In this document: positions 4,171 to 34,163 of the stretch, piece after piece
Position numbering within the stretch: the stretch's first letter is position 1
Layout: each line of letters opens with the position of its first letter
Assembly: GCA_913051935.1 (NCBI GenBank)
Contig: CAJXCU010000023.1
Location: 1-34,163, forward strand
From: an uncultured Flavobacteriales bacterium
GTDB taxonomy: Bacteria > Bacteroidota > Bacteroidia > Flavobacteriales_D > Crocinitomicaceae
Direction of reading: 5' to 3'
DNA: 34,163 bases
The notes under the pieces: generated by a model
Seen by the model: only the letters and a program-made list of their open reading frames with translations
What the model was told of the DNA's origin: nothing
The model's database searches: none
Made by a program: the position numbers and the translations under genes

Positions 4171-5880
4171 TTAGATGTTTATTTGCTTGTCTTTATCGAA
4201 TTTGATTCGATACTCAAAATTATATGTTTTTTGATTTGTTGGTTTTAGTATGGTTTTCCATTCTATCAATCCGGTCCTTTGTTTTAGTTTACCTTTACCG
4301 GCATTGATTTTATCAATAACTATATCTTCATTTGTGGTGATTGGAATTTGATCCTGGATAACAACCTCAACCTGAGTCGATTTCATATTTTTTATTTCAA
4401 TAGAGTAGGCCAGGTATTTCTCGATTTTATCGCCTATGGTTTTTTCCTTGCATTTAGAGGATATTAACTTTCTTGAAATCGCAATGTTGGGATCTTTCCC
4501 AAGAGATAGATATAAAGTGTCATTCATTGTGGTTGGGTCTATAAAGGTTTCACCGATATAAGACCCATCGAAAAATATATTTGCCTTTGCGGGAATCAGT
4601 TGTAGCTGATCTACTTTTAGCATTTCAGCAACCAAATACACAGATGCATCTAATTTTGGTACGGCATAGTATTTAAAGTTGGTTTCAAGCGCTGACTTTT
4701 GGATAAGTACCATGTGCTTTTCTCCATTAGAAGTGATGTTGTAGGGTAAGTCAATTTTAAATTCTGCGGCTGTGAGCTGATGTGTGATCGATGTAAATTC
4801 ATTAGCGTCGATAGCTTCTGCTTCGGTGTCCTCTGATATGTAAGAGTATCCCATGTTTTTAATGGCTCTAGATGGAACAGTTGTTAGCTCGTAAATTTTA
4901 TTTTCTCTTTCTTTTAAGTCATTTCTGTAAGTCATATAGCTTATATACCATGGGTTTAGTTCAGGCTTTGTTTTATTTGCGTATGGATTATTCGTGGAAA
5001 TATTAAGTTTAATATTTTTCCAATCTAATCCCGTGTTTTGATGAACCTGGGCTTTGTAGTTCATAAATATTTTACCTTCAGCTGATTTACTTCTAATGTC
5101 GTATAGAGGTATCCATCCTGCATTTTTAGCTAAATAAGAAAGATTAATCTCACCATTTGTTGTTGACTCTGCGATCAGTGATATTGTAATTCTCGGAATT
5201 GGATCTTGTTTCTCTCCCGCTTGCCCAAGTTTTCTTAGTTTTTCATTAAGCCTGTTTAATCTTTGGTTCATTTTGCTTAGTGCTTTATTTGATTTATTCT
5301 TTTGCTTACTTAGGTCTAGAACTTTTCTGTTTATTTTATTCATTTTTTCTGCGTAGAATTCAATGATTTCTTTTAATAATTGAATTGAATCATTTACCTT
5401 GCCCTTGTTCTTGACAAGGCCATTGCTCTGGAGGATATTTTTTGCCTCCTTATAAACCACAATTGATTCATCTAAATTTCTTAGCTCATAACCTATTGCT
5501 TCTATAGAATCATTGAGTAATCTGATGCTATTTTTCAGCTGAATTGTTTCTGAGTTGTTGTTTGGGGATGCATTTGTTGGATAAAACAAACCATACTTAC
5601 TGTCTAATATGATAACCTTGCCTGAGGCACTAACTTGAATGGTTTGCGGATCAATTGATGGACTTATACCTTCAATGATAATTTCATTCAGACCTTTTAC
5701 TGCATTGTAGCTCAGGTCAGATCGAAGTTGAACCCCTGAGGTGTATATTGTTGCTTCTTTTAACGCTGCTTTTTTTAAAACCGCTTTTTTGAGTTCATTG
5801 CTTGCTTCTTTTTTTGAATCAAGGCTGTAGGAAAGATTTACCAAAGTAATCATTAGTGTGGTTAAGAGTAATTTGTTCAT
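4171..5880 (-). CDS. Secreted DUF4139 (mucoidy inhibitor MuiA-like) protein
   Basis: A 569-residue exported protein. Residues 1-19 form a signal peptide (MNKLLLTTLMITLVNLSYS). Residues about 35-100 (KEATIYTSGVQLRSD...GLNEIIIEGISPSID) fit the DUF4140 N-terminal domain. A long charged helical region follows (about 105-225, rich in Lys/Asn/Leu heptads, probably coiled coil), and then the DUF4139 domain (about 230-565), seen in LSYLAKNAGWIPLYDIR, NTGLDWKNIKLNIST and the IEWKTILKPTNQKTYNFEYRI end. This order is that of the MuiA family, named after a protein that reduces mucoidy in E. coli; the molecular function is not known. It stands alone, with a terminator after it and a divergent ABC operon before it. 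Confidence 0.82.
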   Translation of the reverse strand: MNKLLLTTLMITLVNLSYSLDSKKEASNELKKAVLKKAALKEATIYTSGVQLRSDLSYNAVKGLNEIIIEGISPSIDPQTIQVSASGKVIILDSKYGLFYPTNASPNNNSETIQLKNSIRLLNDSIEAIGYELRNLDESIVVYKEAKNILQSNGLVKNKGKVNDSIQLLKEIIEFYAEKMNKINRKVLDLSKQKNKSNKALSKMNQRLNRLNEKLRKLGQAGEKQDPIPRITISLIAESTTNGEINLSYLAKNAGWIPLYDIRSKSAEGKIFMNYKAQVHQNTGLDWKNIKLNISTNNPYANKTKPELNPWYISYMTYRNDLKERENKIYELTTVPSRAIKNMGYSYISEDTEAEAIDANEFTSITHQLTAAEFKIDLPYNITSNGEKHMVLIQKSALETNFKYYAVPKLDASVYLVAEMLKVDQLQLIPAKANIFFDGSYIGETFIDPTTMNDTLYLSLGKDPNIAISRKLISSKCKEKTIGDKIEKYLAYSIEIKNMKSTQVEVVIQDQIPITTNEDIVIDKINAGKGKLKQRTGLIEWKTILKPTNQKTYNFEYRIKFDKDKQINI

Positions 5881-8474: not shown

Positions 8475-9227
8475 ATGAAATTACTCGAGAACAAAATTGT
8501 ACTAATTACCGGGGGGTCGCAGGGGATAGGAAAATCCATCGCCCAAGAATGTATTCGACAAGGGGCCACTGTGGCATTTACATACAGAGATGAGAATACC
8601 CAAGATCAGGCAAAACAGGTAGAAAAAGAATTAAATCAAAACGGTGGATCGGCAAAAGCCTTTATGTCGGACGCAGCAAATTTTGATGATGCTCAGGAAT
8701 TAATTGCTGACGTTATCTCAGAGTTTGGAACAATAGACGCGCTCGTGAATAATGCCGGTATTACAAGAGATACCTTGTTAATGAGAATGTCTGAACAGCA
8801 GTGGGACGACGTAATCAATACAAATCTTAAATCTGCTTTCAATTTAACAAAAGCCGCACAGATTCCAATGCTGAAGGCTCGTTCTGGGTCAATTATAAAT
8901 ATGTCATCTGTTGTCGGCGTCAAAGGAAATGCAGGACAGGCAAATTATGCTGCTTCCAAAGCAGGTCTCATCGGATTCACGAAATCTGTTGCAGCTGAGC
9001 TTGGATCGAGGGGTATAAGGTGTAATGCAATAGCGCCTGGATTCATTGAAACTGAAATGACAAAATCGTTGGATGAGAAAGTTGTAGAAGAATGGAGAAA
9101 TGGTATTCCACTCAAAAGAGGGGGGACTCCTCTAGATGTGGCTAATACCACCGTTTTCCTGGCAAGTGATATGTCCTCATACGTTACTGGACAGACGATT
9201 CATGTCTGCGGTGGAATGTTAATGTAA
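8475..9227 (+). CDS. fabG: 3-oxoacyl-[acyl-carrier-protein] reductase
   Basis: A 250-residue NADPH-dependent short-chain dehydrogenase that reduces 3-oxoacyl-ACP in fatty-acid elongation. It has the nucleotide motif TGGSQGIG (12-19), NNAG (92-95), and the catalytic Ser145, Tyr158 and Lys162 (NMSSVVG, ANYAASKAG). The NAIAPGFIETEMT block and the C-terminal GQTIHVCGGMLM are typical FabG features. An ATG 102 bases upstream in frame would add a hydrophobic 34-residue extension that overlaps the previous gene; family length and the promoter-like element argue for 8475. The hemB gene starts three bases after the stop. No other fatty-acid gene is adjacent, so the substrate could differ from bulk acyl-ACP. 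Confidence 0.9.
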   Translation: MKLLENKIVLITGGSQGIGKSIAQECIRQGATVAFTYRDENTQDQAKQVEKELNQNGGSAKAFMSDAANFDDAQELIADVISEFGTIDALVNNAGITRDTLLMRMSEQQWDDVINTNLKSAFNLTKAAQIPMLKARSGSIINMSSVVGVKGNAGQANYAASKAGLIGFTKSVAAELGSRGIRCNAIAPGFIETEMTKSLDEKVVEEWRNGIPLKRGGTPLDVANTTVFLASDMSSYVTGQTIHVCGGMLM

Positions 9228-9230
9228 ACT

Positions 9231-10202
9231 ATGAATATTCGGCCAAGAAGAAATAGAAAAAATGCTGCGATTAGGGATATGGTCCAGGAATCGCGCCTTG
9301 GGTTAGAAAATTTAATATTTCCAATTTTTTTAAAGGACGGAGAAAACGTTAAAGAAGAAATACCTTCATTACCAAATATTTATAGATGGTCAATTGATTT
9401 GTTACTTAAAGAAATAGAGGAGTGTTTAAAACTAGGCATACGTGTCTTTGATATTTTCCCTGCGGTAGAAGAGCATCTTAAAGATAAAACTGCTACACTA
9501 AGCTACGATCCTGCAAATTTCTATTTAAAAGCAATTCAAAAGATCAAAGAAACTTTTCCAGAGGTGGTGTTAATGAGTGACGTCGCCTTAGATCCATATT
9601 CCTCTGATGGTCATGATGGTCTGGTCCGTGACGGAAAAATCGTCAATGACGAAACGCTTCCTATATTGGCTAAAATGTCTGTAGCTCAGGCTCAAGCGGG
9701 TATTGATATTATTGGACCTTCGGACATGATGGATGGGAGAGTAGAGGTTATACGCTCGGCTCTAGATGATGCTGGATATTCTGATACAAGCATCATGTCT
9801 TATACTGCTAAATACGCAAGTGCGTTTTATGGACCATTTAGAGACGCTCTTAACTCGGCTCCAAAGTCAGGTGATAAAAAAACCTATCAAATGAATACCG
9901 CCAACAAAGGTGAGGCATTAATCGAAGCACAACTCGATGTTGAAGAAGGTGCGGACATGATTATGGTCAAACCAGCTTTATGCTATTTAGATGTGATTCA
10001 CTTGCTTAAAGAAAATTTTGCAACACCCGTAACTGCATACAATGTAAGCGGAGAATACGCAATGGTTCATGCCGCAGCTCAAAAAGGTTGGATTGACTAT
10101 AATGCTGCAATGAATGAGATGCTTTTGAGCATTCGAAGAGCTGGCGCAGACGGAATTCTCACTTATTTTGCAAAGGACTTTGCGCAATCGTTAGTTGATT
10201 AA
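9231..10202 (+). CDS. hemB: Porphobilinogen synthase (delta-aminolevulinate dehydratase)
   Basis: A 323-residue cytoplasmic enzyme joining two 5-aminolevulinate molecules into porphobilinogen for haem synthesis. The two substrate-binding lysines are Lys194 (SYTAKYASAFYGPFR) and Lys247 (MIMVKPALCYLD). The metal loop at 117-130 reads DVALDPYSSDGHDG: aspartates replace the three zinc-binding cysteines of the E. coli and human enzymes, so this belongs to the Mg2+-type class seen in plants and many bacteria. RPRRNRKNAAIRDMVQE at the N-terminus is the usual arm region. It lies three bases after fabG and 14 bases before the histidase gene in an apparent operon; a functional link with those genes is not obvious. 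Confidence 0.96.
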   Translation: MNIRPRRNRKNAAIRDMVQESRLGLENLIFPIFLKDGENVKEEIPSLPNIYRWSIDLLLKEIEECLKLGIRVFDIFPAVEEHLKDKTATLSYDPANFYLKAIQKIKETFPEVVLMSDVALDPYSSDGHDGLVRDGKIVNDETLPILAKMSVAQAQAGIDIIGPSDMMDGRVEVIRSALDDAGYSDTSIMSYTAKYASAFYGPFRDALNSAPKSGDKKTYQMNTANKGEALIEAQLDVEEGADMIMVKPALCYLDVIHLLKENFATPVTAYNVSGEYAMVHAAAQKGWIDYNAAMNEMLLSIRRAGADGILTYFAKDFAQSLVD

Positions 10203-10216
10203 TCAATCCGATTACC

Positions 10217-11689
10217 ATGCATTACATAACAGATGATTTTTACAGTATCGATAAAATACATGAGATCATTGCCTCTGGCGAAGAAATAGCTATCAGTGAA
10301 AGTTGTAAAAATAAAATTCGTGACTGCTCAACTTATTTAAAAAATAAATTGTCTTCAGGGGATCAAATTATTTACGGAATAAATACCGGATTTGGCTCGT
10401 TGTGCAACACTGTTGTAAGTACTGGAGAGCTTGAGGATTTACAGATCAACCTCGTTCGTTCTCATGCTTGCGGTGCGGGTGCACAAATCCCCAACAATAT
10501 TGTCAAGCGTATACTTCTCCTGAAAGCAATCGCTTTGAGTAAAGGACACTCTGGTGTCTACTTAGAAACCGTAGAAAGAATATTGTGGTTGTATAACAAT
10601 AATGTGCTACCTGTAATTCATGAACTTGGAAGTCTCGGTGCCTCAGGAGATTTAGCACCTCTAGCACATATGTCACTATCTCTTATAGGAGAAGGTGATG
10701 TGATTTATGAAGGTGAAATAAGACCAACAGCCGAAGTATACGAACAGCTAGGTATGCATGCACTAAAGTTGCATCCTAAGGAAGGTCTCGCATTATTGAA
10801 TGGAACACAATTCATGGCGGCTTACCTTAGCAAATGTGTTACAGAGGGCTTTAAAATATTTAATGCAGCAAATGCTGTAAGCTCCATTTCTATCGATGCC
10901 CTAATGGGGCTGATTTCTCCTTTTAAAGCCAACGTAAATGGGCTGAGAAGGCAGAAGGGACAAATCGAGGTGGCACGTATTGTATTCGAAAGGCTAGAGG
11001 GTAGCGAACTGATCGATCAGCCAAAGGAACATGTGCAGGATCCTTACTCGTTAAGATGTATCCCTCAGGTCCATGGTGCGAGCAAGGATACTTTGGATTA
11101 CTGTAGAACGATTATAGAAAATGAAATTAATGCGGTCACCGATAATCCTACTATTTTTCCTGATGAGGATGAAATTATCTCTGCTGGGAATTTTCATGGC
11201 CAACCTTTGGCGCTTGCACTGGACTATTTGGCAATTGCCTTATCTGAATTGGGAAGTATATCAGAACGCAGAACCTACAAGCTTATCTCGGGAGATAAGG
11301 GGTTACCACCGTTTTTGGTCAAAAATCCCGGGCTTCATTCTGGTTTAATGATCGCACAATATTCTTGTGCCTCTATGGTTAGTCAAAACAAACAGCTTTG
11401 CACCCCGGCTTCAGTTGATACAATTGACTCCAGTAACGGTCAAGAGGACCATGTCAGTATGGGCGCAAATGCTGCGACGAAGTGTTTAAAAGTACTTAAA
11501 AATGTTCAGGATATTATTGGTATTGAGCTCATGAGTGCTGCGCAAGCAATGGAGTACAGAAGACCTTTACGGTCCTCCAAAGTAAATGAGGATTTATTGA
11601 CTAATTACAGAAAGAATGTTCCTTTTATTGAGGATGATCGTGTGCTGTCTTATGATATTAAAAAGTCAAAATCATTTTTATTCAAATGA
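10217..11689 (+). CDS. hutH: Histidine ammonia-lyase
   Basis: A 490-residue MIO-type ammonia-lyase. The Ala142-Ser143-Gly144 triad in GASGDLAPLAHMSL forms the MIO cofactor. Tyr53 (YGINTGFG), His83 (LVRSHACG) and a Glu in GQEDHVSMGANA are at the histidase positions (Tyr53, His83, Glu414 in the Pseudomonas putida enzyme). The Ala-Pro pair after ASGDL and the Glu argue for histidine rather than tyrosine; bacterial tyrosine lyases of Flavobacterium read ASGDLVQL and NQDIVSMG. The product would be urocanate. No hutU, hutI or hutG is in view, so the rest of the histidine pathway must be elsewhere or absent. The next gene overlaps its stop by four bases (ATGA). Confidence 0.88.
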   Translation: MHYITDDFYSIDKIHEIIASGEEIAISESCKNKIRDCSTYLKNKLSSGDQIIYGINTGFGSLCNTVVSTGELEDLQINLVRSHACGAGAQIPNNIVKRILLLKAIALSKGHSGVYLETVERILWLYNNNVLPVIHELGSLGASGDLAPLAHMSLSLIGEGDVIYEGEIRPTAEVYEQLGMHALKLHPKEGLALLNGTQFMAAYLSKCVTEGFKIFNAANAVSSISIDALMGLISPFKANVNGLRRQKGQIEVARIVFERLEGSELIDQPKEHVQDPYSLRCIPQVHGASKDTLDYCRTIIENEINAVTDNPTIFPDEDEIISAGNFHGQPLALALDYLAIALSELGSISERRTYKLISGDKGLPPFLVKNPGLHSGLMIAQYSCASMVSQNKQLCTPASVDTIDSSNGQEDHVSMGANAATKCLKVLKNVQDIIGIELMSAAQAMEYRRPLRSSKVNEDLLTNYRKNVPFIEDDRVLSYDIKKSKSFLFK

Positions 11690-12228
11690 TTAGTATTCAC
11701 CCGACAGATGATCAACAACCTAAAAATAGTTCAAGGCCAAAGCGTCCAAATGGGCTTTTTGTACTTTTTGTATTGACACTAATAAATGCTGGTAGTCAGC
11801 TCTTTACTTCCATCTCAGGAGTATTTAGCGGTCGTCCAGATAAATCTGTTTTTGAGGCTGTTAAAATCGAAAATGCAAAGTTGATCAATGAGATAAAAAA
11901 TTATGGACAAGACATTAATGAAGAATGGATCGATATTATACGTCAAATGGAGAAAATAACATTGGCATCGCTAGAAAATTTTCAGCTTTTCAGTTTATTA
12001 CTGCTATTGATATCTAGTTTGGGGTTGTATGGCGCTTTCAAGATGTTTAAAGGTTATAAGCTAGGTTTTCACCTTTATATTGCATACTCTTTCCTTGGCT
12101 TAATTCAATATTATTTTGTGATTAGTCCTTCTGAAATCCCAGCTTTCACTTTAATCGCAAACGGTTCAGTATCCTTATTCTTTATTCTTATGTATGGTCG
12201 ACATCTTCACTGGATGAAGGAGAATTAA
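11686..12228 (+). CDS. Unknown membrane protein, four predicted helices
   Basis: I do not recognise this 180-residue protein. It begins with a polar, proline-rich stretch (1-22) and then has four hydrophobic segments at about 23-45, 100-118, 126-147 and 151-170. A charged helical loop (50-95) with several Glu, Lys and Asp residues separates the first from the other three. It overlaps the histidase gene by four bases (ATGA), so it is probably translated from the same message. The 3' end overlaps the convergent FAD oxidase gene by four bases through the palindrome TTAA, which gives both genes their stop codon. An inner-membrane location is likely; the role is unknown. Confidence 0.75.
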   Translation: MISIHPTDDQQPKNSSRPKRPNGLFVLFVLTLINAGSQLFTSISGVFSGRPDKSVFEAVKIENAKLINEIKNYGQDINEEWIDIIRQMEKITLASLENFQLFSLLLLLISSLGLYGAFKMFKGYKLGFHLYIAYSFLGLIQYYFVISPSEIPAFTLIANGSVSLFFILMYGRHLHWMKEN

Positions 12229-13634
12229 AATATTTTTCCAGGATTTAGTATTCCATTGGGGTCAAATACTTTTTTAATTTCTCGCATTAAATTCAACGTT
12301 ATTTCTGGAAATGCAATGTGCATATATGGTTTTTGTACAAGTCCGATTCCATGTTCTCCTGAAATTGTACCACCAAGAGCCACTACTTTTTGGAAAATCT
12401 CTTCTATTGCCTTCGGAAGCTCATCGTTCCATAATTCGTCGTTCAGTGTTCCCTTGAGAATATTGACATGAAGGTTCCCATCTCCTGCGTGGCCGTAACA
12501 CACGGACTGAAAACCATATTTATTACCTATGTCTTTAACGCTTTCAAGTAATTGAGGTAGGTGAAACCTCGGAACAACGGTATCTTCCTCTTTATATGTA
12601 GAGTGTCCTTTAACGGCCTCCCCAACTTTCCTTCTCAGATTCCAAAGGGTATTTTTTTGTGCTTCGGATTCCGCAAATAGAATTTCGTCCGTTTCAAAAT
12701 TTTCTAAAACACCAATGATTTGTTCGCACTCCTTCATGAGTATTTCGGGATCAAAACCATCAACCTCAATAAGCAGGTGAGCCTCGTGTGAGTCGCTTAC
12801 TTTGATTGTGTAATCTTCTGTAAATTCCTGGGCTAAAAGCAAGGCATCCTTTTCCATGAATTCCAATCCACTGGGAACAATGCCAGCTCTAAAAATTGCC
12901 GAAACCGCCTGGCATGCTTTTTTTGCTTCATAAAAAGGAACAAGCATGAGCATATCATGTGTTGGGTGGGTCCTGAGCTTCAAAACTATTTTTGTCACTA
13001 CGCCTAAAGTACCTTCAGAGCCTACCATTAGCTGGGTAAGATTGTATCCCGTTGCATTTTTAATCACATTGGCGCCTGTCCAAATTATCTCTCCATTTGG
13101 CAGTACGACCTCCAAGTTGAGTACATACTCGTTTGTGACTCCATATTTAACTGCCTTAGGTCCACCTGAGTTTTCAGCAATATTCCCACCAATAAAACAA
13201 GAGCCTCTACTGGCCGGGTCTGGAGGGTAAAATAGTCCTTTCTCCTTCACGGCATCTTGTAAAACCTGCGTAATGACTCCGGGCTCTGTAGTTACCTGAT
13301 GATTTTTTTCATCAATACTGATAATGCGATTGAGCTTTTCAGTTGATAGAAGCACCCCCCCATGAATGGGCAATGAACCACCACTTAGACCTGTTCGTGC
13401 GCCTGCAGGAGTAACAGGTATTTTTTGTGCATTACAATATTTTAATACTTCTGCTATTTCTTTCTCATTTTCAGGGATGAGAACTACAGACGGCATGTAA
13501 ACTAAATCTTCAGTTTCATCGCTGCTATATTCTTGTAGATCAGATGCATTAGTCTTGCAGCGTTCACCAAATAAATTTTTAAAGAAATTGATATCAGCTC
13601 CTGAGATATCTGTAAATGTTGCTTTGCTACTCAT
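12225..13634 (-). CDS. FAD-binding oxidase, GlcD / D-lactate dehydrogenase type
   Basis: A 469-residue flavoprotein of the glycolate oxidase subunit D / D-2-hydroxyacid dehydrogenase family. The FAD-binding PCMH domain covers about residues 45-225, with PAGARTGLSGGSLPIHGG as the pyrophosphate loop and SGGPKAVKYGVTNEYVLNLE before GSEGTLGVVT. The C-terminal FAD-oxidase domain has YGHAGDGNLHVNIL, with metal-binding His, and GGTISGEHGIGLVQK near the end. No GlcE or GlcF subunit or Fe-S partner is adjacent, so it probably works alone on D-lactate or another D-2-hydroxyacid. The exact substrate is not readable. It diverges from the thiolase gene across a 78-base gap without a perfect promoter match. 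Confidence 0.9.
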   Translation of the reverse strand: MSSKATFTDISGADINFFKNLFGERCKTNASDLQEYSSDETEDLVYMPSVVLIPENEKEIAEVLKYCNAQKIPVTPAGARTGLSGGSLPIHGGVLLSTEKLNRIISIDEKNHQVTTEPGVITQVLQDAVKEKGLFYPPDPASRGSCFIGGNIAENSGGPKAVKYGVTNEYVLNLEVVLPNGEIIWTGANVIKNATGYNLTQLMVGSEGTLGVVTKIVLKLRTHPTHDMLMLVPFYEAKKACQAVSAIFRAGIVPSGLEFMEKDALLLAQEFTEDYTIKVSDSHEAHLLIEVDGFDPEILMKECEQIIGVLENFETDEILFAESEAQKNTLWNLRRKVGEAVKGHSTYKEEDTVVPRFHLPQLLESVKDIGNKYGFQSVCYGHAGDGNLHVNILKGTLNDELWNDELPKAIEEIFQKVVALGGTISGEHGIGLVQKPYMHIAFPEITLNLMREIKKVFDPNGILNPGKIF

Positions 13635-13712
13635 CAGTATTTAAAGGTAACAATATCCTCATATTTGATCTTGTATTCACCTAAAATTGTAATTTTATAT
13701 GAAAACAGATTC

Positions 13713-14921
13713 ATGAAAAAACAAGCCTATATTATTGATGGGATTCGAACCGCCATAGGGAACTTTGGGGGTACGCTTTCTCCTGTTCGTGCTGACGACC
13801 TTGCGGCCCACGCGATTAAAGGACTTCTGGACAGGCATTCAGATCTTGATTTTTCAAAGGTTGAGGATGTTATTTTAGGGTGTGCAAACCAGGCCGGTGA
13901 GGACAATAGAAACGTAGCTCGAATGGCAGGTCTATTGGCTGGATTACCTCCATCAGTTCCAGGAGAAACAGTAAATCGTTTATGCGCTTCCGGAATGGCT
14001 GCTGTTATTCATGCAAGCCGAGCGATTTATTCTGATTCTGGTGATTTATTTATTGCCGGTGGCGTAGAGCACATGACACGTGGTCCGTGGGTGATTTCTA
14101 AAACATCTAAAGCCTTCGGTCGAGATGCACAAATGCATGACTCATCTTTTGGATGGAGATTTATAAATCAAAAGCTACATGATGCATATGGTACAGATGG
14201 AATGGGTGTGACCGCGGAAAATTTAGTTGAGAAATATAATATTAGTCGCAAGGATCAGGATACTTTTGCGCTTTGGTCACAACAGAAAACTAAAGCAGCG
14301 CAGGAGGCTGGATTTTTTATGGATGAAATTGTACCTGTTGAAATTCCAAGGAGAAAAATGGAGCCCTTGACTTTTGATATAGATGAGTTCCCGAGGGGAA
14401 ATACAACATTAGAGAGTTTAAATGGTCTAAGACCGGCATTTAAAAAAGAGGGAACTGTTACTGCTGGTAATTCCTCAGGGCTTAACGATGGTGCAGCGGC
14501 TTTGTTAATTGCTTCTAACTCGGCTATTGAGGCGAATAATCTAAATCCTCTCGCTAGAATTGTTTCTTCTGCTGTAGCTGGCGTTGAGCCTCGAATTATG
14601 GGAATTGGTCCTGTGGCTGCCTCTCAGAAGGCATTGGAAAGAGCAGGCCTGAGTCTTGAAGATATGGATATACTTGAGCTGAATGAAGCTTTTTCAGCAC
14701 AGGTATTGGCATGTACGCGGATGTTAGGTATTCAGGATGATGATCCAAGAATCAATCCAAATGGCGGTGCCATTTCTCTTGGTCATCCGCTAGGTATGTC
14801 TGGGTCTCGAATTTTACTTACGGCCGCAAGACAACTAAACAGAACAAACAAGCGTTATGCTCTTGTAACAATGTGTATTGGTGTGGGTCAAGGATATGCT
14901 ACCATTCTAGAAAAAGCGTGA
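13713..14921 (+). CDS. Thiolase, 3-oxoadipyl-CoA thiolase-like (PcaF/PaaJ type)
   Basis: A 402-residue acyl-CoA C-acyltransferase. The acyl-accepting cysteine is Cys91 (NRLCASGM), the catalytic His is His358 ([17 protein letters not shown]) and the second Cys is Cys388 (TMCIGVGQG). The block [17 protein letters not shown] (57-73) and the GWRFIN segment match the beta-ketoadipyl-CoA thiolases of the protocatechuate and phenylacetate pathways more closely than acetoacetyl-CoA thiolases. No pca, paa or fad gene is adjacent, so it could instead be a general beta-oxidation thiolase. The ATG at 13713 is preferred to an ATG 48 bases earlier because family members start MxxAYIxDxxRTxIG. The stop overlaps the GTG of the next gene. 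Confidence 0.9.
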
Positions 14922-16540
14922 ATCGAAAAAAGCTATTTTGTATATTTTATGTTTTGCTACTTCTAAGTAGTGGTATTTCGTGTAAAAAAAAGAATACCGA
15001 ATGGAATTCAGATTGGGTTTTGCCTCTGGTAAAGGACACATTAAATCTATTTAATTATCACAACGATAGCACTTTAGATAATACAAGTAATGGGTATGTT
15101 GTTGATATGAAACGTACCCTCTTGGATGTGTATATGAGTGACTATCTTAAACTGCCCGATACCACAATACAACAAACCTATTCTCCATCCATTGGGATTG
15201 GGAATATTCCCGCGGGATTTACATTTTACAATGCTGTAGAAACACACGATCTCAGTATTCCAGATGTGGAATTGAAAAAGGTCATTGTATCAAGCGGTAG
15301 TATCCAACTATCTGTATATAATCCAATTTCCACAAGTGCTTATTTTACGATCTCAATGCCGGGTGTTTCTCTAAATGGAATTGATTTTGAGCAAACTTTT
15401 TTTGTTGAAGCTGGTACACAAGAGCAGCCCGCTGTAGGAGAGGCTTTCATTTCATTAGATGGTTATGAACTCGACCTTCAGGGGACAGGTGTTATTGGAT
15501 CCTCTAATATTTCAGCATTCAATATATTGCAGACCTCCTTTTCAATTACGACTGATCCCGAAGGAGAAAGTTCAAGTTTATCGACTTCGGATGTTTTTGA
15601 GTTTGATGCTAAATTTGAAAATATTAAAATTCAATATGCGCAGGGTTATTTTGGTGAATTGGCTTTTTCTGACACATCAGAAATTTCCATTCCATATCTT
15701 GATCATATTCTTTCTGGTTCTGTTTCATTAAATGACATTCCCTTGACATTTTCAATTGAAAATGGAGCAAAAATACCAGCCTCAGCAACTCTCACCTTGT
15801 TAGAGAATACCAATACAAATCAGAATTCAGTTGACTTGATTTCAAGTCAGCTAAACACAGCCCATTTTATTGGTCCTGCTACAGGAGCTTGGTCCTCTTT
15901 GGTGCCAAATGAATCCTCTATTTTATTTGATGCTACCAATAGCAATCTTAGTACCTATATTGCCAATTTAGGTGTCACACATAGGATTGGCTACAATATC
16001 AGAATGAACCCATTGGGCTCCATAACAGGAAGTTACAATGAGATTTTCCCAAATAGTAAGCTAAGGGTTGAGCTCGACTCTGAATTTCCCCTAGCGCTTG
16101 GTGTAGATGGGCTCATTTTATCTGATACCATCGCATTTTCAATGAATTCGACGCGATTAAATGACTTTATGACTGCAGAGGCGATGGAGCTGCATTTAAG
16201 TTCAACAAATGCCTTTCCCATTCAGATGGGCATATCTATGGAATTTTTAGATGAGACAAATAATCTTCTTCAAAGTATACCAACAGAAATCATTCTGCGC
16301 TCATCGTTAGATGGTTCACTTGACCCTATGGATAATATGTATAAAGCATCCAGTAAGTCTGTTGTGGCTATGACTACTGAACTTTTAGAATTTTTACCGA
16401 CAACTAAAAAGATTGTGATCAAAGCCCATCTTCAAACGAATGCCTCCTTAATGCAACCCACGCCCGTTGCGATTCCCAGCAATGCTTCATTGTATTTCGA
16501 GTCTTTTTTAAAGCTAACAACAAAAAACACTTTGAAATGA
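14918..16540 (+). CDS. Unknown lipoprotein with repeated beta-rich segments
   Basis: A 540-residue protein I cannot assign. The GTG start at 14918 overlaps the thiolase stop (GTGA); an ATG 45 bases earlier would give an unlikely N-terminus lying inside the thiolase gene. From the GTG, a signal peptide ([20 protein letters not shown]) ends at a cysteine followed by three lysines, the usual look of a Bacteroidota lipoprotein. The mature part is rich in Ser, Thr and Asn and alternates short beta segments, with phrases such as NISAFNILQTSFSITT and NSKLRVELDSEFPLA suggesting several Ig-like or barrel-like modules. It is coupled by ATGA to the next gene, a probable outer-membrane protein. It is likely anchored in the outer membrane as its partner (inference). 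Confidence 0.65.
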   Translation: MNRKKLFCIFYVLLLLSSGISCKKKNTEWNSDWVLPLVKDTLNLFNYHNDSTLDNTSNGYVVDMKRTLLDVYMSDYLKLPDTTIQQTYSPSIGIGNIPAGFTFYNAVETHDLSIPDVELKKVIVSSGSIQLSVYNPISTSAYFTISMPGVSLNGIDFEQTFFVEAGTQEQPAVGEAFISLDGYELDLQGTGVIGSSNISAFNILQTSFSITTDPEGESSSLSTSDVFEFDAKFENIKIQYAQGYFGELAFSDTSEISIPYLDHILSGSVSLNDIPLTFSIENGAKIPASATLTLLENTNTNQNSVDLISSQLNTAHFIGPATGAWSSLVPNESSILFDATNSNLSTYIANLGVTHRIGYNIRMNPLGSITGSYNEIFPNSKLRVELDSEFPLALGVDGLILSDTIAFSMNSTRLNDFMTAEAMELHLSSTNAFPIQMGISMEFLDETNNLLQSIPTEIILRSSLDGSLDPMDNMYKASSKSVVAMTTELLEFLPTTKKIVIKAHLQTNASLMQPTPVAIPSNASLYFESFLKLTTKNTLK

Positions 16541-17760
16541 CACGATGCTCTCAGCTATTGCTATGCTTATTGTTCCATGTTTTGTTTGTACAAAATTTGC
16601 TTTGCCAAAGTATGCTCCCTATTCAACAGGATACAACGCTTTTTAAAAATCATGAGCTTATCATTTCCGGAGTTGCAGACTATCAATCTACATCAATTGG
16701 AAAGGACATAACAAAAAGTTTCATTTACGGCGGATTCATTACTGATGAGATGAAAGGCCAAACTAGTTCTAAACAGCAAATAATCAATCGATTTGGATTT
16801 GATATCAACAGTGAACTACAGTACAAGAACCATAGATTTAATATGTTCAAAGATTCAACCAAAGGTTTTCTATTGAAATACGGCATTTATAATTATTCCG
16901 CAGTTGAGCATTCTGAAGACGTATTTGATTTGCTTTTTTATGGAAATTCGGCATTCATTGGAGATACTGCGGTTTTGATGGGTAGTCGTTTCGACTCATA
17001 CACATTTCAAAAGTTCGGAATAGGCTGGTTTGATAAACACTCTAAATCCAGCTTTACCCTTAATGCAATAGGTGTTCATAATATGCTCTCTGGCCGCCTA
17101 GATGAAGGATCCCTTTACCAAAGCTCATCAATTGACAGTATCGATTTGTCTTTAATTGCGCAGTACAAGCAAAGCAATTCAAATACCTTTTCTGGCTTTG
17201 GCCTGGCTATGGATATTGATTATCGGTTTGCGATGCCTAAAAATAAAGATGAAAAGATCTATTTCCAGCTTTTGATGAGAAATTTAGGTGTAATATGTAT
17301 GCCCAAAGTTCGGTCTTATTCAATTAACAGTAAGCTGCATTTCGATGCGTATTCAATTGACAATCTATTGAATGCTTCAACTATTCTAAATGATACCGAA
17401 TCTACTTTTGACTCGTTTACGGATTCTTCCTCTGTGAATACAGAATGGAGATTACTCCCTGCATTATTTCAGTTTACAAAGCTTGTAGACCGAAGTTCAG
17501 CGAGAAAAATTCAAGGTTTTTATGGGGCTAGGGCATATTTATCCTCTTCTTTTATGCCTATGTTTTTTTCTGGTATAGATTACCATCCTTCCAAATGGTA
17601 TAGGGTGGGATTGCAAGCGAGCTTTGGCGGGTTTTCTAATCTTCGCTGGGGGATGTATTCTGCAATAGATCTCGATCGTTTTAGCTTTGGTTTGGCATCA
17701 GAAAATCTTTTTAGTAAAACTGGAGAATCTATAATTTTAAGAATATCATGTCTTTTTTAA
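16537..17760 (+). CDS. Probable outer-membrane beta-barrel protein (DUF5723-like)
   Basis: A 407-residue exported protein with signal peptide MTRCSQLLLCLLFHVLFVQNLLCQ. The mature part shows the alternating pattern of a barrel: GFLLKYGIYNYSAVEHSED, FQKFGIGWFDKHSKSSFTLNAIGVHNM, FSGFGLAMDIDYRFAMP and a C-terminal RWGMYSAIDLDRFSFGLASENLF...ILRISCLF ending in an aromatic residue, as barrel proteins do. It resembles Bacteroidota DUF5723 proteins from memory, but this is not firm. It overlaps the lipoprotein gene by four bases (ATGA), and its 3' end overlaps the T9SS gene by 13 bases. The three together look like one envelope unit of unknown function. Confidence 0.55.
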   Translation: MTRCSQLLLCLLFHVLFVQNLLCQSMLPIQQDTTLFKNHELIISGVADYQSTSIGKDITKSFIYGGFITDEMKGQTSSKQQIINRFGFDINSELQYKNHRFNMFKDSTKGFLLKYGIYNYSAVEHSEDVFDLLFYGNSAFIGDTAVLMGSRFDSYTFQKFGIGWFDKHSKSSFTLNAIGVHNMLSGRLDEGSLYQSSSIDSIDLSLIAQYKQSNSNTFSGFGLAMDIDYRFAMPKNKDEKIYFQLLMRNLGVICMPKVRSYSINSKLHFDAYSIDNLLNASTILNDTESTFDSFTDSSSVNTEWRLLPALFQFTKLVDRSSARKIQGFYGARAYLSSSFMPMFFSGIDYHPSKWYRVGLQASFGGFSNLRWGMYSAIDLDRFSFGLASENLFSKTGESIILRISCLF

Positions 17761-19208
17761 AGTACAGTTTATGTTTTTGTGTGGTATGCCTTTTTTCATT
17801 GACTTACAGTCAGTCTACATTTTATAAAGTATACTCTGGTTTAGGATATGATATAGGTGAGGGTATAGCAGAATTACCGGACTCCTCATTTGTGGTTACA
17901 GGATCAAGCACAAGTTGGGAGGGAAGCAGTCAAGTTTATTTTATGAAAATTGATAGCGTCGGAACGCGACAATGGACCAAGCATTATGGAGGTCCAGAAT
18001 CCGACGGAGCATCAAGAGTGCTTTTTAATGAAGATATAGGCTTGTATGCAATTGGCTATACCAATTCAATAGGCCTCGGGGATTACAATGGTTTAGTTAT
18101 CAAAACCGATGAAAATGGAAACGAAGAATGGCAAAAGATATATGGACAATCATCGGCGTGGGAATTTTTAAATGATGCTGTATTTGCCGCTGACTCATCG
18201 ATTGTGATGGTCGGAGAGAGTCAAAGTTTGATTCATGGAGATAAAGATGTTTACATGGTGCGAATAAAATCGGATGGTGATACGCTTTGGACAAAAACAA
18301 TTTCCAATCCCGGTCCAGACTATGCCACCAGTATTACGGTTGTTCAGGATAGCCTATTCATCATCGGTGGCTCCTTTTATTGTGCAGATTCCTTGGCTCA
18401 AAAAGGGTTTGTAATGAAAATGAATAGCGACGGGTCTATTTTGTGGAAGGATACTGTTGGGAACTATTCGGGTGATTATACGATAGAGGACTTATCTGTT
18501 AGCACCGATAAAATTAACGTCGTAGGTGCTAGAATCTTAAGTGAATCAAATCATGATAGCTATTTATTAAAGTTAGATTTTGATGGTGCCATCGTATTTG
18601 AACAAACTGAAAATGATCCCAATGGCGAAAGTGATGTCATCATGGATGAGATTGTTTTTGTTGAAAATCTAAATGTAAACGTTTTGGGTTTCCGTGTAGT
18701 AAATGCGTTTACGTTGCAAGATAATTATGATGCAAACGTTGCCTATTTTAATGAATCATCACTATCATGGCTCAATAATTTCACCTCAATTAATTATTTA
18801 GGTCTAGATGAAGTTAATCACCTTGTACCAACATCAGATGGGGGGTTTATTTCAGTTGGGCAAACAACCTATCCTCTTTGTGGCGGAAGCAATATATTCG
18901 TCCTAAAAGCAGGGCCTTCAGGTAGTTTACCGAATACTGGTGAATATTATACGATTGATACGCTTGTTAAGCTAAACGAGAATGAACATTTGTCTCAAAT
19001 ACGGATGTATCCAAACCCGAGTTTAGGAAATCTTGCCTTTGACTATGAAAGTGGAGCTGAACTAGAGCTATTTCTATACAATAGCCGAGGTGTTTTGGTA
19101 TACAATAAGCAAATTAGATCTGGAGAGATTCATGATATTTCGAGACTGCCTCGGGGATTTTATTTCGCCGAATTAAATGGCGAAGTATTTAAACTAATCA
19201 GGCTTTAG
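17748..19208 (+). CDS. T9SS-secreted repeat protein with type A sorting domain
   Basis: A 486-residue exported protein. Residues 1-21 form the signal peptide (MSFLKYSLCFCVVCLFSLTYS). Residues about 25-385 hold five to six copies of a roughly 55-residue repeat with the pattern '(D)GG.GI....DSSFVVTGS......DVYF.KID..G...W.K.YGG...D....', probably a beta-propeller. The C-terminal 75 residues (IRMYPNPSLGNLAFDYE ... LYNSRGVLVYNKQI ... GFYFAELNGEVFKLIRL) are a type A sorting domain, recognised by the type IX secretion system and cut on export to the surface or medium. It starts 13 bases inside the preceding barrel gene. The repeats resemble proteins often annotated only as hypothetical secreted; the ligand is unknown. 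Confidence 0.8.
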   Translation: MSFLKYSLCFCVVCLFSLTYSQSTFYKVYSGLGYDIGEGIAELPDSSFVVTGSSTSWEGSSQVYFMKIDSVGTRQWTKHYGGPESDGASRVLFNEDIGLYAIGYTNSIGLGDYNGLVIKTDENGNEEWQKIYGQSSAWEFLNDAVFAADSSIVMVGESQSLIHGDKDVYMVRIKSDGDTLWTKTISNPGPDYATSITVVQDSLFIIGGSFYCADSLAQKGFVMKMNSDGSILWKDTVGNYSGDYTIEDLSVSTDKINVVGARILSESNHDSYLLKLDFDGAIVFEQTENDPNGESDVIMDEIVFVENLNVNVLGFRVVNAFTLQDNYDANVAYFNESSLSWLNNFTSINYLGLDEVNHLVPTSDGGFISVGQTTYPLCGGSNIFVLKAGPSGSLPNTGEYYTIDTLVKLNENEHLSQIRMYPNPSLGNLAFDYESGAELELFLYNSRGVLVYNKQIRSGEIHDISRLPRGFYFAELNGEVFKLIRL

Positions 19209-20373
19209 CTTTTCTTCTTCTATTTTTTTCTGTAACAATTAAGCTAAGCTCTCTGCTTGTTTGTCCAGCAACAGAAGTATTCTCATCTGCCCTTCTCAAT
19301 AAATAGGGCATCACCTCTTTCACAGGTCCAAAAGGAACATATTTTGCTACATTGAAGTCTTCACTTGACAGATTAAAAGATATGTGGTCGCTCATCCCCA
19401 AAAGCTGAGCAAAGAAAACACGGTGGTCATCCTTTGCTATTTGGTATTTTTCTAGTTGCCTAGCAAGCTGCATCGAACTTTCTTCATTATGGGTTCCAGC
19501 TACCAATGAAAAGTGATGTATATTGTCTAATATAAAGCTCTGAGCCTGATTATAGTCATCATCGGTTGCTTGTTTATCTATTTGAATAGGGGAGGGATAA
19601 TTCATATCTAGGGCCCTTTCTCTTTCCCTTTCCATGTATGCTCCGCGAACCAATTTTACACCATAACTCACCTTTTTATCTACTGCTTTTTGCACACAAG
19701 ATTTAAGGAACTTTAATCTATCATGACGGTACATCTGAATTGTATTATACACGATCGTACGCTCCTTATTAAATAAGCACATCATTTCAAACGCCCAAGT
19801 GTCAATAATATCCTGAATCCAGCTCTCTTCTGCATCGATAAATACTGGAACATTTAGCTTATAAGCTGTTTTACAAATGTTCAATATTCGTTCTTCAACC
19901 TTTGCCAATTCAGCAAGCTCTTTCTCGGAAAGTTCGATTTCTTTATCGCTTGCCTTTTCGAGAAGACTGAATTGACTGATCCCTGTAATTTTAAAAACTG
20001 CAAAGGGAATGTTTTTTTCTTGTTTTGCTTTTTTAATCGTATCAATAATTATCGCCGTCGTTTTATCGAAATCATCTTCTTGGGTTTTACCTTCTACTGA
20101 ATAGTCCAAAATGGTTCCTATACCCTGACTTCCAAGCGCTTTAATGGTAGGAGCGCATTCAGAAATTGTTTCTCCGCCACAGAATTGCTTAAAAATGGTT
20201 CGCTTAACAACAAAGTTTATAGGTAATCTGAGTTTAAGCGCAAATAACATGAATCCTTTGCCAATTTTAACAATCTTCGGGGAGCTAATTACCTTGAACA
20301 GTATATAAGCTCTATTTAAGTCAAGATTCGATTTTAACTTGAAGGCAATTTTGGTATTCTCGAAGTTCAGCAC
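19198..20373 (-). CDS. Proline dehydrogenase
   Basis: A 391-residue FAD-dependent enzyme oxidising L-proline to pyrroline-5-carboxylate. The fold is the PutA-type TIM barrel: ILDYSVEGK near residue 90, FAVFKITGIS, VPVFIDAEES, TIQMYRHD, YGVKLVRGAYMERERERA and the C-terminal substrate motif YVPFGPVKEVMPYLLRRADENTSV with the paired arginines. It is a stand-alone dehydrogenase, as in other Flavobacteria; P5C dehydrogenase is not in view. The start chosen is GTG because MLNFENTKIAFK aligns with the N-termini of family members and the next ATG is 41 codons later. Its 3' end overlaps the convergent T9SS gene by 11 bases. Confidence 0.9.
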   Translation of the reverse strand: MLNFENTKIAFKLKSNLDLNRAYILFKVISSPKIVKIGKGFMLFALKLRLPINFVVKRTIFKQFCGGETISECAPTIKALGSQGIGTILDYSVEGKTQEDDFDKTTAIIIDTIKKAKQEKNIPFAVFKITGISQFSLLEKASDKEIELSEKELAELAKVEERILNICKTAYKLNVPVFIDAEESWIQDIIDTWAFEMMCLFNKERTIVYNTIQMYRHDRLKFLKSCVQKAVDKKVSYGVKLVRGAYMERERERALDMNYPSPIQIDKQATDDDYNQAQSFILDNIHHFSLVAGTHNEESSMQLARQLEKYQIAKDDHRVFFAQLLGMSDHISFNLSSEDFNVAKYVPFGPVKEVMPYLLRRADENTSVAGQTSRELSLIVTEKNRRRKAKA

Positions 20374-33181: not shown

Positions 33182-33189
33182 TATCTTTG
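33182..33189 (+). promoter_or_regulatory. Candidate -7 promoter element before the tRNA-Arg locus
   Basis: TATCTTTG matches TAnnTTTG. It lies 10 bases before the decayed 5' tRNA half and 65 bases before the intact tRNA. No TTG stands at 17-23 bases upstream. Its distance suits transcription starting at the broken copy, as if that copy was once the first gene. Confidence 0.4.
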
Positions 33190-33199
33190 CACCTCTAAT

Positions 33200-33245
33200 G
33201 GACTCGTGGCGTAACTGATACAAAAAGTATGTAGTAGCGCACCAC
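33200..33245 (+). pseudogene. Decayed 5' half of a tRNA-Arg copy
   Basis: The segment beginning GGACTCGTGGCGTAACTGATA matches the first 20 bases of the downstream tRNA-Arg (GGCCTCGTGGCGCAACTGAATA) with two substitutions and one gap. About 15 foreign bases (33220-33235) then interrupt the D-loop, after which TAGCGCACC resumes the tRNA sequence. It then stops resembling a tRNA, so it has no anticodon arm or 3' half and cannot form a tRNA. Confidence 0.65.
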
Positions 33246-33254
33246 AAGTAAAAA

Positions 33255-33328
33255 GGCCTCGTGGCGCAACTGAATAGCGCACCTGATTACGGCTCAGGAG
33301 GTTACAGGTTTGAATCCTGTCGAGGTCA
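33255..33328 (+). tRNA. tRNA-Arg(ACG)
   Basis: Acceptor stem GGCCTCG pairs with CGAGGTC (33321-33327, one G-U pair); discriminator A at 33328. The D-stem is GCGC/GCGC (33264-33267 with 33277-33280), the anticodon stem CCTGA/TCAGG with loop TTACGGC, giving anticodon ACG at 33289-33291. The T-stem is ACAGG/CCTGT with loop TTTGAAT. The first anticodon base would be deaminated to inosine, so the tRNA reads CGU, CGC and CGA arginine codons. The encoded 3' end is ACA, so CCA is only partly encoded and is added after transcription. A terminator follows directly. Confidence 0.95.
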
Positions 33329-33332
33329 CAAA

Positions 33333-33363
33333 AAAAAAGCTTCCCTTTCAGGAGGCTTTTTTT
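33333..33363 (+). terminator. Rho-independent terminator after tRNA-Arg
   Basis: The hairpin AAAAAAGCTTCC (33333-33344), loop CTTTCA, GGAGGC (33351-33356) has one G-U pair in the GC core and continues into a run of seven T (33357-33363). It lies five bases after the tRNA discriminator base. Confidence 0.85.
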
Positions 33364-33395
33364 ATTTAGGTACTTTCAATGGATGAAAACCTAGT

Positions 33396-33590
33396 TTAAC
33401 CTGAGTATCTTAGATGCGAAAGACCCGGGCGAGGTGAAGGAAATCCTTTCGAGGTCACTCTAGCGTTGAATAGATCAAAATAGATTGGTTCTCCGCTTTT
33501 TGTTTTGATAAAATCCTTTTCGGTTATATTTCCATATTGATTCAAACATTCACACGCTCCGATGTATTCAATTTTTTCGTTTATTTTTAA
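33396..33590 (-). pseudogene. Start-less open frame, possible gene remnant
   Basis: On the minus strand an open frame of 64 codons ends at TAA and is closed upstream by TGA. It has no ATG or other convincing start. The first 45 residues look like real protein (KIEYIGACECLNQYGNIT, then SGEPIYFDLFNARV), with balanced composition and codons like the neighbours; I recognise no family. The last 19 residues read antisense through the tRNA-like 3' relic (TSKGFPSPRPGLSHLRYSG), so they are tRNA-derived. The most likely reading is a decayed gene fragment joined to the relic, but chance openness in 195 bases cannot be excluded. Confidence 0.35.
33430..33457 (+). pseudogene. Decayed 3' half of a tRNA-Arg copy
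   Basis: AATCCTTTCGAGGTCA (33442-33457) matches the 3' end of the intact tRNA-Arg (AATCCTGTCGAGGTCA, 33313-33328) with one change in 16 bases. Upstream, GAGGTGAAGGA aligns with GAGGTTACAGG of the tRNA. The T-stem is shifted to AAGG/CCTT, a paired change, but the loop is shortened, so it is not a working tRNA. A second copy of a tRNA 3' end is what an integrase attachment site would leave, but no integrase is in the window. Confidence 0.6.
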
Positions 33591-33613: not shown

Positions 33614-34163
33614 ATGCCAAAATTCTTCAGAAATATTCCACAAAATGTCTTCTCAGAAAATAAATTAATTAATTATCTTATCTATACTATAAGCGAAATT
33701 CTACTTGTGGTGATCGGGATTCTAGTGGCACTGCAGATTGACAATTGGAATGAACAACGTAAAAAAGAGATATTAGAATTGAATCTCTTAAAAGAGATGA
33801 AGAGCAATTTACTTTCCGATATTGAGGATATTAATGAAAATATCCGATTTCACGAAAGAGGTGTTGAGTCCGCCAATATTATTTTGAGATCATTTAAAAA
33901 TGATTATCCATACAATGACAGTCTAAATAAGCATTATGGGAAAGTTCCTATGATTCCAAAGTTCTTAATGTCTGAAAATGCATATAATAGTATGAATAAT
34001 GAGGGGATCCGAATAATTAGTAATGATTCATTACGAAATGCAATTACGCATCATTACGAGTCTAGTTCCGCTTTTATGATGCACTGGAATGAGGCAGAAT
34101 GGGAGACCCAAATGCAAGACCACCGAACGATTTACAGAGATTATTTCAAGAAGTTTGACTTTT
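33614..34163 (+). CDS. DUF6090-type membrane protein, N-terminal part
   Basis: The gene runs off the window; 183 codons are visible. The start MPKFFRNIPQNVFSENK, then YTISEILLVVIGILVALQIDNWNEQRKK, is the hallmark of Bacteroidota DUF6090 proteins: a short basic N-terminus, one membrane helix (about 28-42) ending IDNWNE, then a long helical extracytoplasmic domain (LNLLKEMKSNLLSDIEDINEN). Function is unknown. DUF6090 genes often occur as paralogues in accessory parts of flavobacterial genomes, consistent with a position just after a tRNA with relic copies (inference). The ATG has an AT-rich leader with no SD sequence. Confidence 0.85.
   Translation, partial: MPKFFRNIPQNVFSENKLINYLIYTISEILLVVIGILVALQIDNWNEQRKKEILELNLLKEMKSNLLSDIEDINENIRFHERGVESANIILRSFKNDYPYNDSLNKHYGKVPMIPKFLMSENAYNSMNNEGIRIISNDSLRNAITHHYESSSAFMMHWNEAEWETQMQDHRTIYRDYFKKFDF

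Follow-up and report, generated by a model that had tools for sequence, protein, structure and literature searches.

Why should an intact tRNA-Arg(ACG) gene be flanked, on both sides, by copies of its own ends? The question arises from the window, i.e., the whole stretch of 34,163 nucleotides analyzed here, which corresponds to the entire contig C23 of a source genome of 2.36 Mb in 100 contigs. The features of the locus are collected in Table 1.

Table 1. Features of the tRNA-Arg(ACG) locus, with positions in the window
Feature	Position	Strand	Basis or remark
Presumed TAnnTTTG-type promoter element (TATCTTTG)	33182..33189	+	read from the sequence
5' hairpin unit, 55 nt	33200..33254	+	first 20 nt copy the tRNA 5' end, 17/20
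Intact tRNA-Arg(ACG)	33255..33329	+	ARAGORN; Rfam RF00005, 58.9 bits at 33255-33328
Spacer between tRNA and 3' copy	33330..33441	+	terminator-like hairpin about 33337-33363, then no detectable similarity
Copy of the tRNA 3' end (AATCCTTTCGAGGTCAC)	33442..33458	+	16/17
Decayed large serine recombinase C-terminus	33417..33527	-	tblastn; reads into + past the 3' copy
DUF6090 protein, runs off the contig	33614..34162	+	Pfam PF19578, E=9.3e-8; a neighbour only

Terminal Copies of the tRNA-Arg(ACG) Gene

The 5' copy, GGACTCGTGGCGTAACTGAT, extends over positions 33200-33219 and agrees with the first 20 nt of tRNA-Arg(ACG) at 17 of 20 positions; the 3' copy agrees with the other end of the gene at 16 of 17. 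Neither value was equalled in any of 5000 dinucleotide shuffles of the respective flank, a statistical comparison with background that the earlier note on this DNA had named beforehand. Its claim that copies of both ends flank the gene is thereby supported, and its intact tRNA with a terminator is likewise recovered. The 3' relic that it placed at 33430-33457, with 15 of 16 identical bases, is indeed a copy, with coordinates corrected to those of Table 1. Elsewhere in the window, on both strands, no match of at least 14/20 to the 5' end and none of at least 13/17 to the 3' end is found. The source genome contains 24 tRNA matches, 23 of which were called by ARAGORN in their loci, the partial match L073 being left uncalled. 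For the 22 other tRNAs, a few of which have short flanks owing to contig ends, the best flank match does not exceed 13/20 on either side, versus 17/20 and 16/20 at tRNA-Arg(ACG).

The element TATCTTTG ahead of the 5' copy is taken to be a promoter of the TAnnTTTG type. Behind the gene, a terminator-like hairpin can be read from the sequence at about 33337-33358, followed by T's up to 33363; a simple terminator scanner listed none. In Rfam, the tRNA is the sole match above the gathering score at the window.

The Upstream Hairpin Unit

The earlier note described positions 33200-33245 as an interrupted 5' half of the tRNA. This description is not sustained: past the first ~20 nt the sequence diverges from that of the tRNA, no anticodon or T-arm sequence is seen by eye, and the stretch 33200-33254 folds as a single hairpin of -14.8 kcal/mol, an energy reached by only 1 of 300 shuffles. 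The corresponding z value of -2.7 lies within the range of -3.31 to 0.53 spanned by the 55-nt stretches before the tRNAs of the source genome (the window's own included), and is therefore, taken alone, unexceptional.

Two relatives bear on the age of the unit. The locus of genome G017 is orthologous, as its neighbouring TPR protein is 69% identical and its upstream DNA agrees at 498 of 623 aligned bases. There, the matching promoter stretch, TACCTTTGCACCTCTATT, leads directly into the tRNA with no 55-nt unit between; the 55 nt could therefore be a gain in the window lineage or a loss in G017, and that the broken copy came first is no more than one possibility. In G019 (locus L002; TPR protein 94% identical) the unit is present and much diverged. 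Its counterpart of the pair 33206-33245 reads as A-T instead of G-C, changed on both sides, and its fold is weak, being reached by 64 of 300 shuffles. Of the relatives compared, as the earlier note advised, G019 has the unit in diverged form on a contig that stops 49 nt beyond the tRNA, and G017 lacks it and carries a module on the 3' side.

Similar 5' units precede tRNA-Arg in other genomes. Among the 139 distinct tRNAs of the fetched loci, nine, all of them tRNA-Arg, have their own 5' end repeated upstream at no fewer than 15 of 18 positions, the best value in shuffled flanks being 12/18; the unit is doubled in L045 and L048. Of 16 units subjected to folding (the two in L048 being identical), nine have a stability that no more than 4 of 300 shuffles attain, and for the other seven this number is 8 to 64. 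The units of L101 and L201, both at tRNA-Arg(TCT), retain D- and anticodon-arm sequence and look, by eye, like worn tandem tRNA copies. A common origin of the 5' units and 3' copies in one event was considered and rejected: of 64 distinct tRNA-Arg with flanks, 5 carry both, 4 only the 5' copy, 17 only the 3' copy and 38 neither (Fisher p=0.25). The candidate "empty site" pairs L048/L021 and L045/L005 were also discarded, since different isoacceptors were being compared. The upstream hairpin is a separate, less understood addition at the first base of the tRNA.

A Structured Module Behind tRNA Genes of Relatives

In relatives, a module of ~160 nt is located directly behind tRNA-Arg and nine other tRNA kinds. 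It comprises a terminator, a four-way junction of helices P1-P4, a T-arm-like hairpin, P5, and then, often, the 3' copy. Helix P2 is the terminator of the tRNA, and P4 looks, by eye, like an oppositely facing terminator. Alignment A1 consists of 19 tRNA-Arg(ACG/TCG) loci; its 50-pair structure was derived from the fold of a single member, L042, and covariance model R1 was trained solely on these 19 loci, the tRNA itself being excluded. In A1, 27 of the 50 pairs are changed on both sides, against a shuffled mean of 14.0 (0/500), and the covariation score is 0.219 versus 0.110 for shuffled and at most 0.100 for slid controls. Alignment A2 contains 70 matches fitted to R1, so that its covariation leans towards the model; here 45 of 49 pairs are changed on both sides (shuffled mean 37.5), with a score of 0.561 versus 0.177 shuffled (0/500) and at most 0.120 slid. 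The module fold in relatives covaries beyond shuffled controls. Coevolution of P5 with the tail of its tRNA was dropped as a candidate, the native fold being lower in 23 of 34 hand-chosen modules (Wilcoxon p=0.19, not significant). Rfam searches of ten relative loci returned tRNAs and one SRP RNA; for L042, positions 4800-5300, the tRNA alone exceeds the gathering score, with 17 weaker matches below.

R1 matches occur in 60 of 199 genomes sampled from the order and in 30 of 198 sampled from the class, the source genome being unmatched in both searches; these searches covered order and class only, and the E-values of R1 are rough. At the order level, 60 loci were taken from the upper part of the match list, and 49 of them have a module whose first base lies -1 to +7 nt from the end of a same-strand tRNA. 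Among the remaining 11, one (L182) lies within an interrupted tRNA, eight (L169, L172, L195, L198, L199, L211, L214 and L215) follow what is apparently a duplicated tRNA 3' end, and two (L196 and L217) are cut at contig ends; the latter two are counted among the 60 loci and omitted from the 63 module rows. At the class level, 20 loci were fetched, and in 18 the distance from the tRNA end to the module start is -2 to +9 nt, the exceptions being L304, which is 170 nt from its tRNA, and L316, which follows a tRNA-Ser-like 3' end. The tRNA kinds involved are Arg, Lys, Leu, Ser, Met, Phe, Val, Pro, Cys and His. Because R1 was trained on Arg loci without the tRNA, the adjacency of module and tRNA constitutes independent evidence.

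Of the 63 order-level rows, 11 show behind the module a 17/17 repeat of the 17 nt that precede it, and 18 a repeat of 14/17 or better (in L195, L198 and L214 the preceding stretch is itself a copy and was not called as a tRNA); at the class level, a 17/17 repeat is present in 6 of the 20 loci. Downstream of 35 of the 139 distinct tRNAs in the fetched loci, a copy of the tRNA's own 3' end is present at 14/17 or better, a proportion that is no population rate, as the loci were fetched because they match R1; shuffled flanks gave 0/139, with a best value of 12/17. Re-examination of 130 tRNAs placed none of 33 such copies within another tRNA gene. Many intact modules retain only AATCC and a few further bases of the 3' copy. 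A search of named genomes for the module pattern returned 42 stretches, mostly labelled as Crocinitomicaceae, Cryomorphaceae, Flavobacteriales or Flavobacteriia bacterium; the remainder comprises two MAGs labelled Chryseobacterium gleum and single entries labelled Cytophagaceae, Rhodospirillales and plain "bacterium". A literature search, mostly at the level of titles and abstract openings, found no paper on such modules in Bacteroidia.

Some individual loci deserve separate mention. In L182 (G215:C38, minus strand, ~700-970), the T loop of a tRNA-Arg(ACG) is split by ~125 nt of module devoid of the first helix strand and the terminator, and an intron-like arrangement, a pseudogene or an assembly error are the available readings. 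Genome G215 has 32 other tRNA matches over the cutoff, and the 30 loci read include Arg CCT, TCG and TCT and no ACG. Behind the tRNA-Arg(TCG) of L166, the 3' copy reads AATCCTGACAAGGTCAC, which corresponds to the ACG type found in relatives and not to the end of the tRNA in front of it. The tRNA-Arg(TCG) of L016 / L047 (G012:C61) has an encoded CCA, unlike the other tRNA-Arg genes compared, and L039 and L040, both tRNA-Arg TCG, have, by eye, a downstream terminator in common.

The Spacer of the Window

The window spacer begins at 33330, directly behind the tRNA. When it is compared with the module region of G017 (AAAAAGCTT..AGGCTTTTTT), the best local match is reached by 0 of 1000 shuffles; for the part after the terminator, 928 of 1000 shuffles do equally well, and the terminator alone is common to the spacer and the orthologous module. 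With filters off, R1 assigns 6.1 bits to the spacer versus 55.2 bits to the G017 orthologue, and the lower value was rejected as proof of a recognisable module. The R1 search of the source genome gave no match at E<=0.001. From the orthologous position we infer that the spacer is probably a shortened module; most of the module fold is gone in the window.

A Recombinase Remnant at the 3' Copy

Downstream of the 3' copy, the minus strand codes for ...FIKTKSGEPIYFDLFNARVTSKGF, within a stop-to-stop frame at 33396-33590. In tblastn searches against the window, the G012 remnant (L031) aligns at 33527-33417 (18/37 identical, E=1.3e-6), the G011 remnant (L020) at 33500-33441 (E=5.5e-4) and the intact G002 recombinase (L038) at 33512-33441 (12/24, E=0.057), so that only about the last 37 recombinase residues are recognisable. 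The G002 protein has 528 aa with Resolvase and Recombinase domains, and its last codons lie antisense within the 3' end of a tRNA-Arg(TCG). Intact relatives with the same domains end antisense inside tRNA-Val (G026, L114) and tRNA-Met (G016 and G020; L116 and L117), the G016 and G020 cases being near-identical. With the G002 C-terminus as query, matches are found in 8 of 40 genomes, and the source genome is unmatched at E<=0.001. In G026, G011 and G002, the end of the recombinase frame doubles, by eye, as a terminator-like hairpin behind the tRNA. The window presents the same arrangement, a recombinase gene ending at a tRNA 3' end or its copy, in the form of a remnant. Judging from these alignments, the 3' copy sits at a scar of site-specific recombination.

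Inheritance of Modules and Associated Elements

Among 65 modules, the closest other module belongs to the same tRNA in another genome in 37 cases, to another isoacceptor of the same amino acid elsewhere in 16, to the same genome and amino acid in 4, and to a different amino acid in 8. Modules of the same amino acid within one genome (13 pairs) are on average the most alike, with an identity of 0.789; the mean is 0.731 where the same tRNA is compared between genomes (376 pairs) and 0.664 where both amino acid and genome differ (1144 pairs). This pattern suggests that a module often remains with its tRNA and that isoacceptors of one genome exchange modules. A plasmid- or phage-borne module was rejected as a candidate, the sole query, L042, giving no plasmid match and one 30-nt phage match (E=4e-3).

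Larger elements are found at some of these sites. In L322 (G085, 9150-19328), a ~9.9-kb element with genes for a tyrosine integrase, HTH_17, Rep_1 and RadC is bordered by tRNA-Arg(CCG) on one side and by a 16/17 copy of that tRNA's 3' end on the other; the copy is followed by a module with a 17/17 copy, and DNA methyltransferase genes are located beyond the last copy. Between modules downstream of tRNA-Arg, an AbiEii gene (Pfam PF08843) is present in L125 (3832-6201), and AbiEii-like and Fic-like genes, identified by eye, in L173 (730-6828).

Origin of the Downstream Copy

The downstream copy can be regarded, with about as much confidence as doubt, as the tail of a worn tRNA-linked repeat (TLR) at tRNA-Arg(ACG). 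The orthologous G017 locus, with its recognisable module and a terminator matching that of the window, supports this assignment. The modules of relatives are observed directly at tRNAs, in tandem copies, with tRNA-specific 3' copies and a covarying fold. A TLR-like module would start right after the tRNA, provide its terminator and end in a duplicate of the tRNA 3' end. By analogy with RrB of E. coli, the likeliest mechanism is one in which some transcripts pass the terminator, the module fold forms in the read-through RNA, and the duplicated 3' end can serve as a second 3' processing site; expression, processing and function of the modules are features that we infer. The sequence at the 3' copy would also have been the insertion site of a large serine recombinase element, now a decayed C-terminus. 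Many intact modules lack most of the 3' copy, a loss that would be unexpected if the copy were an essential processing site. Confidence in the TLR assignment is further tempered because the shuffled mean of the A2 count is high and modules of the same genome are the most alike on average.

As a recombinase remnant lies at the 3' copy, the copy could be an att duplicate alone, left by a serine or tyrosine recombinase element at the tRNA 3' end that was later deleted to a 112-nt spacer and a recombinase tail. This origin is a real possibility, with a probability well short of even. The recombinase C-terminus behind the copy and the intact relatives ending in tRNA 3' ends directly support, on the 3' side, the earlier note's proposal of repeated integration and loss; the layout fits a recombinase-free module as well. 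The L322 element provides an example with a tyrosine integrase, comparable to the 10-kb island of Riemerella which, as the cited source describes it, carries a tyrosine integrase and has its attB in an Arg-tRNA (PMC6764341). The genes enclosed between modules in L125 and L173 point in the same direction, as does the high mean identity of same-genome, same-amino-acid modules, which within-genome exchange or movement predicts. However, the modules are too short for a recombinase, the stretches fetched around four serine recombinase genes and the L115 remnant show no further tRNA-end copy, the closest module is that of the same tRNA in another genome for 37 of 65, and the one-module query found little in plasmids and phages.

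A purely duplicative origin is improbable. Recombination between two AATCC motifs, one in the T arm and one terminating P5, would generate the 3' copies by tandem duplication, and the 5' unit would be a collapsed tandem tRNA, no function being involved. In most loci the copies do begin with AATCC, several have a further module behind them, and the L101 and L201 units keep, by eye, tRNA parts. The covariation found throughout the fold of the relatives' modules, and the frequency with which a module persists at one tRNA, nevertheless argue against neutral debris, and the 5' unit of the window shows, by eye, no anticodon or T-arm sequence. The collapsed tandem array of tRNA-Arg genes suggested in the earlier note was rejected as the source of the 3' copy, since a conserved non-tRNA module occupies this position in related loci; on the 5' side it is kept as a possibility in view of L101 and L201.

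Extending the TLR assignment, Bacteroidia might possess a class-wide, undescribed family of structured RNAs on tRNA genes, in which the read-through transcript would fold into the four-way junction and be freed by its tRNA-3'-end duplicate, with a dose tracking tRNA transcription, and of which the window locus would be a decayed member. This extension is tentative and, taken as a whole, rather doubtful.

Comparison with Known Systems

In integrons, the attC core sites lie in one imperfect hairpin, with a linked integron integrase. Such sites were considered in view of the alternation of genes and structured repeats in L125 and L173; the module fold is a four-way junction. Integrative elements that target tRNAs, such as the Riemerella 10K island, also produce a direct repeat of the tRNA 3' end, as does the tyrosine-integrase element of L322 at tRNA-Arg(CCG), whereas the module has ~160 nt, lacks a recombinase gene and owes its conservation to structure. 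Large serine recombinases with Resolvase and Recombinase domains are represented in the window by a remnant that matches their C-terminus, and the intact ones end antisense in tRNA-Arg, -Val and -Met; unlike in these, the protein beyond about its last 37 residues is gone in the window. The tRNA 3' ends and their copies are landing sites of serine and tyrosine recombinase elements.

The layout is closest to that of the E. coli TLRs. As given in the cited study, 22 TLRs occur in ten loci, one to five per locus, in tRNA operons and, as RrA/RrB/RrF, behind 5S rRNA; the terminal 18-19 bp of each are an exact match to the 3' end of the upstream gene (PMC8144298). At rrB, a terminator stands in front and the repeat is spaced by 150 bp, and for RrB read-through transcription of the terminator and processing are reported to have been shown (PMC8144298). 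According to the same source, TLRs, known in E. coli since 1978, were without a known function until that study, which proposed one for three (PMC8144298). In E. coli the repeat lies directly downstream of a tRNA or 5S gene, here of a tRNA gene; the 3' end of the upstream gene recurs at the end of the repeat in E. coli and, here, at the end of a part of the modules. In contrast to the E. coli repeats, the modules described here possess their own four-way fold and P5, have copies of ~17 nt and occur in Bacteroidia; the likeness is one of layout. On this basis, the modules of relatives are TLR-like by layout, and the window contains a probable decayed one, a worn example that adds little alone. 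An independent set of TLRs in another phylum, with a covarying fold and at many tRNA kinds, would supply comparative data on the question of TLR function, namely on the helices that are retained, the tRNAs concerned, and the circumstances under which the 3' copy persists or disappears.
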